Both the position numbers and the translations under genes were made by a program. A model generated the notes under the pieces. It had not been told where the DNA came from and searched no databases. It was given only the letters and a program-made list of their open reading frames with translations. A DNA stretch of 10,070 bases from Candidatus Woesearchaeota archaeon (GTDB lineage Archaea > Nanobdellota > Nanobdellia > Woesearchaeales > GW2011-AR9). This document shows positions 622 through 6,444 of this stretch, one piece after another. The DNA lies in the NCBI GenBank assembly GCA_016181345.1, contig JACOZM010000069.1, positions 1-10,070 of the forward strand. Direction: 5' to 3'. The first letter of the stretch is position 1. Every line of letters begins with the position of its first letter.

Positions 622-636
622 AGTATGCTTTCCCTT

Positions 637-1968
637 ATGCCTATTGAAATTTGCGCCATTGGGGGATTTTCTAAAACTGAAGGGAATTCTGTAGCGATAA
701 AAATCGATGAAGAAGTTATTATTCTTGATATGGGATTATGCATGGAAGACTATATTAGATTTACTGAAGACCGAGAAGACGTTCAAGGTAAGAACTATAG
801 GGATCTTTTGAAGGCCCATGCTGTTCCGGATTATGGCTTTCTGGAAGATTGGCAGGAGAAGGTAAAAGCGATTGTTTGTTCTCATGGCCATCTTGATCAC
901 TTAGGTGCTGTTCCTTTTGCTGCACCGCTCTTTTCAAAAGCTCCTGTCGTCAGCACCCCTTATGCGATTGAAATTTTAAAAAGTATTCTTCAGGACGAAA
1001 AAATAGATTTAAAAAATCGTCTTATCCCATTAAATTTAGGAGCGACCTATACTGTTTCTGAAAAAATAAAAGTTGAGTTTGTAACCATTACCCACTCTAT
1101 CCCACAGGCAGCTATTGTTGTTATCCACACCCCTTATGGAAACGTTATGTACGTCAATGATTTTAAGTTAGATCCCCAACCAGTCCTAGGCAAGAAGCCC
1201 GACTATAAGCGTTTGACGGAATTAGGCAAGGAAGGTATTGAGATAGTTATCATGAATACCTTATATGCACATGCTCATCGGAAATGCCCTTCAGAATCTG
1301 TTGCACGAGAGATGTTAAAAAATGTCATGCTTGGAGTCAATAGCTTAGGAAAAGGGATGATTGTAACAACCTTTTCTTCGCATATGGCCAGGCTTAAGAG
1401 TATCGTTCAACTCGGAAAAGAACTCAATCGAAAAATAATATTTTTAGGAAGGTCACTCAATAAATATGTGACGGCCGCAGAACGGATTAATTTAGTCAAT
1501 TTTCAAAAAGATGTAAAATTTGTTAACCATGGTGATAAGATTCAGAAGATACTTAAAAAGATAGAAAAAGAGGGAAAGGGAAAATATCTTATTGTCTGCA
1601 CCGGACACCAAGGAGAGCCGAAAGCAATTCTTTCTAGGTTAGCAAGAAATGAATTAAACTTTCATTTTGATTCGGGAGATGTCGTCATTTTTAGCTGTCA
1701 AGTTATTCCTGTAGAAATCAATATCAAAAATAGGGAAAAGCTAGAACAATCCTTGCGAAAAACAGGCGTGAGAATTTTCACTGATGTTCACGTTTCTGGA
1801 CATGGAGCATTAGAAGACCATCGTGATCTATTAGAGATGATCAAGCCGAAGAATATTATCCCGATCCATGCAGGAGCTGAAAAAGGTAGAATGCTAGCAG
1901 AGATGGCAGCAGGATTAGGATTTAAAAATACGACTATTCTTAGCGACGGGGATAAAAGAACATTTTAA
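637..1968 (+). CDS. rnj: Ribonuclease J, archaeal (metallo-beta-lactamase/beta-CASP family)
   Basis: 5'-3' exoribonuclease (possibly also endonuclease) of RNA decay and processing; cytosolic. I choose the ATG at 637 (protein begins MPIEICAIGG, 443 aa) over the in-frame ATG at 625, because archaeal RNase J proteins typically begin MPIEI and the TATA spacing fits. Numbering from the 625 ATG: metal-binding motif HGHLDH at 87-92, third-motif His157 (THSIP), Asp179 (NDF), beta-CASP signature TTFSSHMAR at 248-256, TGHQGEPKA at 327-335, and the C-terminal SGHG (391-394) and IPIHAG (412-417) that return to the lactamase core. All expected zinc ligands are present. The segment at 211-223 (NTLYAHAHRKCPS) diverges from the acidic residue usually seen there. 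Its own promoter is upstream; pcn follows after a gap of about 100 bp with a separate TATA box. Family call is near certain. Confidence 0.93.
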   Translation: MPIEICAIGGFSKTEGNSVAIKIDEEVIILDMGLCMEDYIRFTEDREDVQGKNYRDLLKAHAVPDYGFLEDWQEKVKAIVCSHGHLDHLGAVPFAAPLFSKAPVVSTPYAIEILKSILQDEKIDLKNRLIPLNLGATYTVSEKIKVEFVTITHSIPQAAIVVIHTPYGNVMYVNDFKLDPQPVLGKKPDYKRLTELGKEGIEIVIMNTLYAHAHRKCPSESVAREMLKNVMLGVNSLGKGMIVTTFSSHMARLKSIVQLGKELNRKIIFLGRSLNKYVTAAERINLVNFQKDVKFVNHGDKIQKILKKIEKEGKGKYLIVCTGHQGEPKAILSRLARNELNFHFDSGDVVIFSCQVIPVEINIKNREKLEQSLRKTGVRIFTDVHVSGHGALEDHRDLLEMIKPKNIIPIHAGAEKGRMLAEMAAGLGFKNTTILSDGDKRTF

Positions 1969-2067: not shown

Positions 2068-2811
2068 ATGAAAGTAGTCTTAGCTGAACCAAAATATTTT
2101 AAGGAAAGCATCTCTATCATTTCTGAGCTTGTTTCCGAAGCTAAATTTAAAGTAAATTCAGACGGGCTAGAACTTATTGCGATGGACCCGGCAAATGTAG
2201 CAATGGTCGTGTTTAGGCTATTAAGCAGTTCTTTTACCCAATATGATGTTAAAAAACCATAGGAGATTGCCATCAACCTGAATAATTTAAAACAAATATT
2301 AAGAAGAGCCAAGGGAGATGATATCTTATCGTTAGAAACAGAAGATAATAAGCTCAAGATTCAGTTGAAGAGCAATACGCTAAGGTCATTTTCTATCCCA
2401 ACATTAGAACTAGATGATAAAGAACAAAAAGTTCCACAATTAACTTTTCCAGTTTCTATCCAGATGGATGCACAAGTCTTGAGTGAAGCAATTGAGGATG
2501 TTTCTGTCGTTGCTGAATCAGTTACATTTCTTGGGGAAAAAGAGCTATTATCAGTAAAAGCTGAAGGAGATCTATCAAAGGCATTTATTGAAATACGAAA
2601 TGATGAACATACGGTTATAACAGTAAAAGATGAAGAGAAGTATAAAGCAAAATATTCACTGGAATATTTGAAGAAGATGATAGCTGGAAGTAAGCTGCAT
2701 GACAAAGTGTCTTTGCATTTTAACAATGACTATCCGTTAAAGTTGGAATATAAAGTTACCGACAGGCTATTGCTGAGCTTCATTCTTGCACCAAGAGTAG
2801 ATAATGATTAA
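2068..2811 (+). CDS. pcn: DNA polymerase sliding clamp (PCNA), interrupted by an in-frame TAG at codon 65
   Basis: Processivity clamp that encircles DNA and tethers polymerase, ligase, FEN1 and RFC. Codons 1-64 (MKVVLAEPKY...QYDVKKP) are the first half of PCNA domain 1, with the hallmark DGLELIAMDPANVA at 32-45. Codon 65 (2260-2262) is TAG. The same frame then continues without shift (EIAINLNNLKQIL, residues 66-78) through the interdomain linker and domain 2 to the C-terminal FILAPRV at 237-243, ending at TAA 2809-2811. Including codon 65 the protein is 247 residues, the normal PCNA length, with no gap or frameshift. In the remembered Pyrococcus furiosus sequence the matching position is Glu (PETIGVN against P-TAG-EIAIN), so one G-to-T change from GAG would create the stop. 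Alternatives: amber read as an amino acid (pyrrolysine or suppressor), restart downstream, a recent nonsense mutation, or a base error. PCNA is normally essential, so a dead gene is unlikely unless another copy exists. Confidence 0.93.
2260..2262 (+). other. In-frame amber codon within pcn
   Basis: TAG in the pcn frame, followed directly by GAG ATT GCC ATC AAC, which continues the conserved PCNA sequence. The site is the loop between the two beta-alpha-beta units of domain 1, a surface position tolerant of varied residues. No in-frame ATG lies close downstream; the nearest usable restart would be the TTG at 2365, which would delete conserved strands. Confidence 0.9.
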
Positions 2812-3856: not shown

Positions 3857-4279
3857 TTATATATGTTGGGTTATTTTCTCTTTCAAAAGAGAACTTTTAA
3901 ACATTTGAGGATGATAAGGCTTAAGTTTTTTAACTTTTGCATTCATTCCCAAGGAGTTAAGCTTTTTGCTTAGTTCCTCTGCAGTCATTTTTTGATCATA
4001 GCCAAGACAGAGGACATCAGGATTTTTTTCCCTAATAACCTTAAAATGATCAACTTCATCTCCTAAAACTGCTTCGTCAACAATCTTTAAGCTATTCACC
4101 ATAGCTAATCGCTCTTTTTCCGAAAATATTGTTGGCTTCTTTTCGTTTACCTTCGTTTTATCTCTGGCTATGATGACAATCAAATAATCTCCGTGTGATT
4201 TAGCCTGCTGGAAGTAGTTCAAATGTCCTGGATGGAGGAGATCAAACGTGCCGAAGCACATGACTTTCTTAAGTTTCAT
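3857..4279 (-). CDS. ribL: Archaeal FAD synthase (FMN adenylyltransferase, nucleotidyltransferase fold)
   Basis: A 140-residue cytidylyltransferase-like protein. The N-terminal GTFDLLHPGH (10-19) holds the HxGH nucleotide-binding motif. ARDKTK (38-43), the region around NPDVLCLGYDQ (85-95) and the C-terminal FKSSLLKEKI match the archaeal RibL pattern, where the last motif corresponds to ISSTxxR. RibL of Methanocaldococcus makes FAD from FMN and ATP (established for that family). A related glycerol-3-phosphate cytidylyltransferase activity cannot be excluded, but the LGYDQ context favours RibL. The start codon overlaps the stop of the upstream fusion gene (ATGA), so the two are translationally coupled in one operon. 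Length is normal. Confidence 0.85.
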   Translation of the reverse strand: MKLKKVMCFGTFDLLHPGHLNYFQQAKSHGDYLIVIIARDKTKVNEKKPTIFSEKERLAMVNSLKIVDEAVLGDEVDHFKVIREKNPDVLCLGYDQKMTAEELSKKLNSLGMNAKVKKLKPYHPQMFKSSLLKEKITQHI

Positions 4280-6444
4280 TTTTCCTCCAAATAGGCTTTT
4301 TTTATGATCAGCCGAGCTGTATTTTTTCCGTCCTCTTTTATTTCAAACTCTTTGATAACTACTCGTTTCTTAAATAGAGGACAATCTAATACTAAAGACT
4401 CAAACTCTCCCCCTTCGCCAGCAACGTTAAGACCATTCTTTTGGTTCATCGCCTTCAGTTTTTCTACATCCTCTTTAGTCATGATCCGATTAAGCCAACG
4501 TTTATCTAAACCATCGGCAGCTATCGCTGTAAGAATAAATTTAAATCCTTGTCCAAGCAATTCAGACATCTCCTGCTCTTGCAATTTATGCCATAGCGGT
4601 GAAAAGGTTTTTAACCCTAATTCTTCACAAATATTTTCGATACGCTCACGCTGATACGTTGAAGCTAAAGCACCAGTAATTATCCCATCAATATGATATT
4701 CCTCTTGAGCTGTCTGTAAAGCCCGTTTTAAGTCTTGCAATTCTTTTTCTTTTTCTCCTGGTGTAGTTTGAGTTATTAACGGGAGATTCATAGCTTGTGC
4801 TTGCAAGTCTACCACTTCTATTCCCGCAGTTTGAAACATGTAGGAATCTTTGTTTTTAGATCTTAACGTTATCAAACAACTAAGCTGATAATTCTGCCGT
4901 TGCATAATATAAGCAGCATACGTAGAATCCTTTCCTGAAGAAAATAAGACACCTAAACGTAAATTCTGGCGAGGATAGAACTGGTAGATATATGCAGATT
5001 TAATGGATAAATTATTTTTTTTAGTTAATTTTTCAAAAGCAGAATCTATCCTAGAACCGTATTGGGCTGCTACTTTCTTACGAAAAGCCAATTCATGCGA
5101 TACGCCTTGTTTCTCTGCTAAAAATCGCAGAATGTATTTGCTGTGTCCTTCCTTAATTTTATATTTAGCCGGAATTTTTAAGGCGTAGTTCACTAAGTCT
5201 AAATCTAGATAAGGAAGACGTAATTCTAGTCCATGATGCATCGTAACGACATCGTCACGATATAAATCACGTTCGTAAAGTTTACGCAAGCCCGAGACGC
5301 ATTCTAGGTTAAGATCTAAGGATAGTTTGTGACGCTCATAACCTGCAAATATTTCTTCGCTGCCTAATCCGGAAAAGATGACTTTACATCCATCTTTACT
5401 AGCCAGTTCACATGCAGCATAAAAAGTTAAGGCTACTCCTGCTTTAGTAACATTATTATCTTCAATAAGAGGAACTACCTTCTTCAAGTAACTTGGAATA
5501 CGTGAGAGAGGTATTTTTTTTACTTTGAGTTTCAACCCCATAGATCTAGCTGCTTTTTCCGCATAGATCAGATCCGTGGGCTGCGTCTCTTTTGTATCCA
5601 ATACTGCCGTGTAACAGGTAAAAGGTATCTTTTTCTGTTTTAGATAGTGAGCTAAATACGTAGAATCTAACCCTCCGGAGAATAACAAGCCAAGTTTTTT
5701 AGATGGAATCCGTTTATTAATAGCTTGAGCAAGTAATCTGGCTGTTTTTTTACAAATGGCCGAATAGTCGTCATGTTGCTCTGGTTGAGAGCTAAAGAAT
5801 GTCTGCTGGATAAACCTTACTGCTTTTTGATTTATGTCATAAACAAGAATTTGCCGCGGGTGTAATTCACGAATGTAAGTATAATTCAGTTTTTCCAGAG
5901 CTTTTTTTTCAGAAGCAAACGCGAAACTGCCCTCTTCGTGCGCAAACCATAACGGTTTCTCTCCTAAAATATCACGGGCTAAAATCAAGCAATTGTTCTG
6001 ATAATAAGCAAAGGCATAAACTCCATCTAATTGTTTTAATACCTCTGATAGAGTGGATAGGGTTGATTGTTCTACTTGATCCGATAATTTCAATGGTTTT
6101 GATAGTTTTAATTTGTTTGCCTGTCCTGACTGCTCTAATTTCTTTATTCCAAACCTATCTAATAGGTGCAATAATACCTCGGCGTCGTTTTTTGCTTTTA
6201 ACTTATATTTTTTTTGTAGCTCCCGCCAATTATAAATTTCACAATTAGCAACTAAGATCCCTTTTCCTTGAATTGGTTGAGGAACATTGTTGACGACGGC
6301 ATGCAACGTATGCCCAAATACAGATGTAGGATTAATGGAAAGAAATTTACTTCCGTCTTTTCCTCTATTTTTTAAGATGGCTATCGCTTGCTGAACTTTT
6401 TTTTTCGCTTCCGGATGACCAAATACTCCGACAATTCCGCACAT
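4276..6444 (-). CDS. Fusion: glutamine amidotransferase/asparagine synthetase + diphthine-ammonia ligase (Dph6)
   Basis: 722 residues with three catalytic units. 1) Class II glutaminase domain, about 1-200: nucleophile Cys2 (MCGIVGVFG), RGKDG (27-31), GH (44-45), QPI (56-58), NCEIYNW (67-73), NDAE (86-89). 2) Asparagine synthetase PP-loop domain, about 215-480: SGGLDS (256-261), SGLGSEEIFAGY (358-369), LRLPYLD (408-414), KYILR (436-440), RKKVAAQYGS (455-464). 3) Dph6-type PP-loop domain, about 495-722: SSGKDSTYAAY (502-512), GALASTYQRERIE (591-603), SPLW (615-618), GEGGEFESLVLD (676-687). Dph6 amidates diphthine on elongation factor 2 using ATP and ammonia. The fusion suggests that glutamine-derived ammonia could be shared between the two synthetases (inference). 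Departures from E. coli AsnB: the Arg49 position is Leu47 and Gly75 is Cys68. A low-complexity insert lies at about 103-135. TATA 26 nt upstream, leaderless; ATGA overlap with ribL. Confidence 0.9.
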   Translation of the reverse strand: MCGIVGVFGHPEAKKKVQQAIAILKNRGKDGSKFLSINPTSVFGHTLHAVVNNVPQPIQGKGILVANCEIYNWRELQKKYKLKAKNDAEVLLHLLDRFGIKKLEQSGQANKLKLSKPLKLSDQVEQSTLSTLSEVLKQLDGVYAFAYYQNNCLILARDILGEKPLWFAHEEGSFAFASEKKALEKLNYTYIRELHPRQILVYDINQKAVRFIQQTFFSSQPEQHDDYSAICKKTARLLAQAINKRIPSKKLGLLFSGGLDSTYLAHYLKQKKIPFTCYTAVLDTKETQPTDLIYAEKAARSMGLKLKVKKIPLSRIPSYLKKVVPLIEDNNVTKAGVALTFYAACELASKDGCKVIFSGLGSEEIFAGYERHKLSLDLNLECVSGLRKLYERDLYRDDVVTMHHGLELRLPYLDLDLVNYALKIPAKYKIKEGHSKYILRFLAEKQGVSHELAFRKKVAAQYGSRIDSAFEKLTKKNNLSIKSAYIYQFYPRQNLRLGVLFSSGKDSTYAAYIMQRQNYQLSCLITLRSKNKDSYMFQTAGIEVVDLQAQAMNLPLITQTTPGEKEKELQDLKRALQTAQEEYHIDGIITGALASTYQRERIENICEELGLKTFSPLWHKLQEQEMSELLGQGFKFILTAIAADGLDKRWLNRIMTKEDVEKLKAMNQKNGLNVAGEGGEFESLVLDCPLFKKRVVIKEFEIKEDGKNTARLIIKKAYLEEK

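Follow-up and report, generated by a model that had tools for sequence, protein, structure and literature searches.

The window analysed here, a stretch of 10,070 nucleotides, lies on contig 114 of a woesearchaeal draft genome comprising 902,592 bases in 146 contigs and estimated to be 68.39% complete. It carries a gene for the archaeal DNA sliding clamp PCNA whose reading frame is interrupted by a stop codon. The relevant features are the following:

625..1968, forward strand: RNase J-type beta-CASP ribonuclease, neighbour of pcn, uninterrupted
2068..2811, forward strand: pcn (PCNA, DNA sliding clamp), 247 codons plus TAA, with one TAG interruption
2260..2262, forward strand: in-frame TAG at codon 65 of pcn, a position where 111 of 120 listed homologues and the near-identical protein P0002 have E
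2365..2811, forward strand: downstream open reading frame (ORF) of 148 amino acids with a TTG start at about codon 100, beginning where the PCNA_N match ends

The preliminary description of this DNA had reported that codon 65 is an in-frame TAG in a PCNA gene which is otherwise perfect, spans 247 codons, is free of insertion, deletion or frameshift and has conserved PCNA sequence on both sides. All of this was confirmed. The ORF that begins at 2068 terminates at the TAG after 64 amino acids, and the same frame then stays open until the TAA at 2809-2811, continuous over 2068-2811; the TAG is truly present in the draft sequence. The product obtained by reading through the TAG, with X at codon 65 (P0001), matches the Pfam domains PCNA_N at residues 7-101 (PF00705, 59.5 bits for a cut-off of 20.3) and PCNA_C at residues 121-242 (PF02747, 53.6 bits for a cut-off of 23), as well as the TIGR00590 pcna model (129.8 bits against 99.1), while five narrower NCBI clamp models score below their own cut-offs. 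The window gene thus shares with archaeal PCNA (TIGR00590 / PF00705 + PF02747) its length, the conserved positions and both the N- and C-terminal domains in a single chain of about 247 residues, and differs from it by the single in-frame TAG at codon 65, owing to which the draft holds no ORF for the whole chain; in P0002 that chain is intact.

A homologue search with P0001 returned matches for 4887 of 5307 candidates at E<=1e-3. Of the 120 matches listed, 111 have E at residue 65, 7 have T, one has K and one has Q. The window protein shows no departure at any of the 100 positions on which 117 or more of these 120 homologues agree. The best relative, P0002, has E at codon 65 and three other differences from P0001. 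The preliminary description had proposed a comparison of relatives at this codon and had named a sense codon such as GAG, seen in reads, as the observation that would speak against it; the Glu of P0002 comes close to this. Matches to P0001 occur in 103 of the 115 genomes searched, the draft included, and the draft alone has an internal stop in pcna, none being found in the other 102 relatives with a match. Codon 65 reads GAA in 21, GAG in 7 and ACT in 1 of the 29 best of these 102 relatives, and GAA in 12 and GTT in 1 of 13 named loci, some of which may overlap with the 29. The named close homologues and the 13 loci carry the labels Candidatus Woesearchaeota, Nanoarchaeota, Nanoarchaeia or simply archaeon. 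Conserved programmed readthrough finds no counterpart here, TAG not being kept at codon 65 in the relatives examined. That PCNA would instead be made in two pieces, by termination at the TAG and restart downstream, is barely conceivable: the TTG-started ORF at 2365 speaks for it, but codons 65-99 would be missing from a product restarted at about codon 100, and the relatives with a match are free of internal stops. We reject this split-gene reading because the TAG falls inside the N-terminal domain.

The preliminary description had offered two branches for the TAG, either a decoded amber codon or a recent nonsense change or base error. Decoding, whether with pyrrolysine or through a different amber suppressor, would yield a full-length PCNA and agrees with the persistence of frame and conservation on either side of the TAG. 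Pyrrolysine-decoding archaea carry pylTSBCD, according to the review PMC9499178. The search for pyl genes that had been suggested was made for PylS and gave no hit of sufficient score: none of the 115 genomes, draft included, has PylS_Cterm above its cut-off (best score in the draft 20.1 bits against 178.15), and PylS_Nterm has no match in the draft, while the positive control Methanosarcina acetivorans is above the cut-off for both. In a draft that is 68.39% complete this absence of PylS is not proof, and a pyl cluster or a tRNA with a CUA anticodon could sit in the missing part.

No CUA anticodon was found by ARAGORN at default settings in the window and 60 other contigs, of which four were truncated to 12,000 bases; on the other 85 contigs the program was applied only around Rfam tRNA matches. 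Such matches number 14 in the whole draft, and among the 11 anticodons fully read and the one partly read, none is CUA. Six of the 14 were named by ARAGORN (Asn, Gly, His, Ser, Ala and Val), and visual inspection supplied another six (Lys UUU, Thr CGU, Thr GGU, Cys GCA, Ser GCU and one starting GA). The two unsettled cases are L014, whose ambiguous anticodon has U, not C, at position 34 in its best reading, and L015, which falls outside the anticodon reading. With loosened thresholds ARAGORN gave 625 hits in 61 sequences, several of them labelled CUA (tRNA-Pyl); these could be counted in favour of decoding, but the set is too noisy for use. In six of the 14 tRNA matches (L006, L007, L009, L011, L013 and L014) the anticodon loop is enlarged by about 40-55 inserted bases, which resemble tRNA introns.

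The behaviour of TAG elsewhere in the draft also argues against decoding. The draft has the archaeal release factor aRF1. Among the 328 start-based ORFs of ≥120 amino acids in 393,308 bases, 179 end with TAA, 77 with TGA and 72 with TAG. When open frames no shorter than 100 codons were compared with their homologues in two relatives, the frame ended about where the homologue does in 25/27 cases for TAG, 58/63 for TAA and 27/32 for TGA. One of the two TAG exceptions, in L112, has its own end 67 residues beyond that of the homologue. In the other, in L088, the homologue's frame continues 437 residues further; similarity continues beyond the TAG in none of the frames, the aligned part resembles what we take to be a whole PfkB-type kinase, and this TAG is taken, unproved, as a natural end. 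TAG is an ordinary terminator in the draft, and since it still ends genes a genome-wide reassignment does not apply.

Stop codons interrupt other genes of the same draft. The stop survey compared 61 of the 146 contigs (393,308 of 902,592 bases) with the ORFs contained in 800,000 bases from two relatives, excluding matches below 40% identity, stops less than 20 columns from an alignment edge and stops with less than 40% identity on either side. It yielded 124 non-overlapping matches covering 29,139 amino acids, with four internal stops flagged and three of them clean; the one in L111 was discounted on visual inspection, since it shares a stretch immediately ahead of the aligned gene with two more stops. 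In addition, when 158,156 bases were scanned for ORFs, a long open stretch behind a stop appeared in 10 frames, nine of which were translated; two were judged by eye to be interrupted genes, and the remainder neighbouring genes, antisense frames or chance. One of this remainder, in L069 with 227 codons after a TAG, would encode a transporter-like protein and then a seemingly separate methyltransferase. The clean internal stops are the following:

Window 2260-2262: TAG in the PCNA gene (stop survey)
L107:1480: TGA in the LonB gene, directly before LIGEPGTGKS (stop survey)
L065:709: TGA in the HerA gene, within STGK*KSN (stop survey and ORF scan)
L059: TAA in the gene of a FemAB/GNAT protein, the fourth clean internal stop (ORF scan)

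The edge and identity rules set aside a further 14 stops in the draft (TAA 9, TAG 4, TGA 1), 7 in the control genome G005 and 25 in the control genome G009. In two genes of the draft a deletion is accompanied by a frame change, detected in each case with two query frames: HerA (L065 near 551-569) has lost 49-51 residues and a thermosome-like gene (L097 near 1150) about 33.

TAG decoding is insufficient to account for these data, because genes of the draft are also broken by TGA, TAA and deletions. Furthermore, no single suppressor or reassignment fits three stop types at four sites occupied in the relatives by E, L, S and G. We consider decoding of the TAG very improbable, and amber decoding through PylS, a suppressor tRNA or reassignment is rejected on the PylS results, the terminator data and the mixed stop types. 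The draft resembles the pyrrolysine-decoding archaea described in PMC9499178 in having an in-frame UAG within an otherwise conserved gene, and is unlike them in that PylS does not reach its cut-off, many genes end in TAG and other in-frame stop types occur. Even less credit can be given to leaky termination, in which a woesearchaeal population would tolerate all three nonsense types and make PCNA, LonB and other proteins by readthrough; it owes its small chance to the 32% of the genome that is missing, but the frame-change deletions in two core genes need a further explanation.

Under the same rule as the draft, the control genome G005 gave 0 flagged internal stops in 33,052 amino acids and G009 gave 3 in 37,467, one inside a signal recognition particle RNA and two antisense to a 75-amino-acid ORF. 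A genuine internal stop is therefore absent from both relatives under the same tests. Deletions with a frame change, 0 in G005 and 0 in G009, were found by the same search in two genes of the draft. The count of simple frame changes flagged, 2 in G005, 2 in G009 and 3 in the draft, where the L111 stretch set aside above accounts for two, does not discriminate between the draft and the controls. A gene in L059 that looks by eye like asparagine synthase changes frame near its end (4758-4774), with 571 and 90 residues aligned to a relative's frame of 639 amino acids; this may be an error or a natural difference.

Intact near-identical proteins cover three of the four stop sites (PCNA, LonB and FemAB/GNAT). 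The best relative of LonB, P0122, is an intact protein of 633 amino acids with L at the stop site; within the overlap a single further residue is different, and P0122 lacks the one that precedes the probable start. Among 120 listed homologues of LonB this column is L in 113, F in 6 and V in 1, and the draft LonB shows no departure at 267 conserved positions. For the FemAB/GNAT protein, the interruption was confirmed by P0242, its best relative, an intact protein of 337 amino acids that is 99% identical and has S at the stop site and one other difference; this column is variable among the 99 homologues listed. The HerA stop site is occupied by G in two relatives. P0002, P0122 and P0242 may come from sister strains.

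These results bear on the second branch of the preliminary description, which stands where the decoded amber fell: terminator use, PylS, mixed stops and deletions all point to a recent nonsense change or a base error. A real and recent nonsense mutation, undecoded and fixed into the consensus from a sub-population or a failing strain, seems unlikely to us. TAG is one base away from a sense codon and the relatives mostly have GAA or GAG; the intact near-identical sister is what a young change would lead one to expect, and the mutation could be private if the near-identical proteins come from sister strains. Against this, PCNA is normally essential in archaea and occurs as a single copy in the draft: a second intact pcn, for which the preliminary description had proposed to look, was not found in the 68.39% of the genome that the draft represents, where the PCNA match is a single one. 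The mutation would also require LonB, HerA and the thermosome-like gene to have been lost in one genome.

The TAG in pcn is most likely a consensus base error of a low-quality draft, made in sequencing or assembly. The mixed stop types, the deletions, the clean controls and the intact near-identical copies favour a base error. We infer a cause in sequencing or assembly, rather than in cells, because the joint breakage of PCNA, LonB, HerA and the thermosome-like gene is hardly compatible with life. Such errors, if errors they are, would be sparse, since PCNA has no second defect at its 100 conserved positions and LonB has none at 267. In living cells, codon 65 is most likely a sense codon (Glu) and the clamp an ordinary PCNA ring. 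The TAG is a genuine part of the draft sequence, but most likely it reflects ordinary biology and no novel use of the genetic code. A comparable confusion is described in PMC8629427, where in-frame stops of pseudogenes in yeast species were mistaken for recoding. Both cases present in-frame stops without a matching suppressor tRNA, here among the tRNAs whose anticodons were read; they differ in that yeast pseudogenes are concerned there, whereas here the draft sequence itself is the likely cause. The draft is unsuitable for claims of gene loss or recoding. It offers a worked example of how recoding can be separated from an in-frame stop error in an essential gene of a draft without reads, by means of three criteria: other stop types and deletions in the same draft, control genomes, and near-identical sequences that are intact.

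The search for PCNA brought further observations. In 12 of the 115 genomes (G015, G019, G027, G030, G034, G046, G053, G064, G065, G068, G092 and G103) there was no match to P0001, nor to PCNA_N on a second search. They include G068, which is 99% complete, and G015, which is 96% complete in 2 contigs; loss, strong divergence or a search miss may account for the missing match. The pcna of G017 lies in two pieces on two contigs (C4:18256-18768 and C34:6722-7048) that overlap at residues 78-108. Elsewhere in the window, an ORF of 722 amino acids on the reverse strand (4276-6444) joins an asparagine-synthase-like part, scoring 263.4 bits with TIGR01536, just below the cut-off of 267.1, to a Dph6 diphthine-ammonia ligase part (residues 499-716) above the cut-off of TIGR03679.
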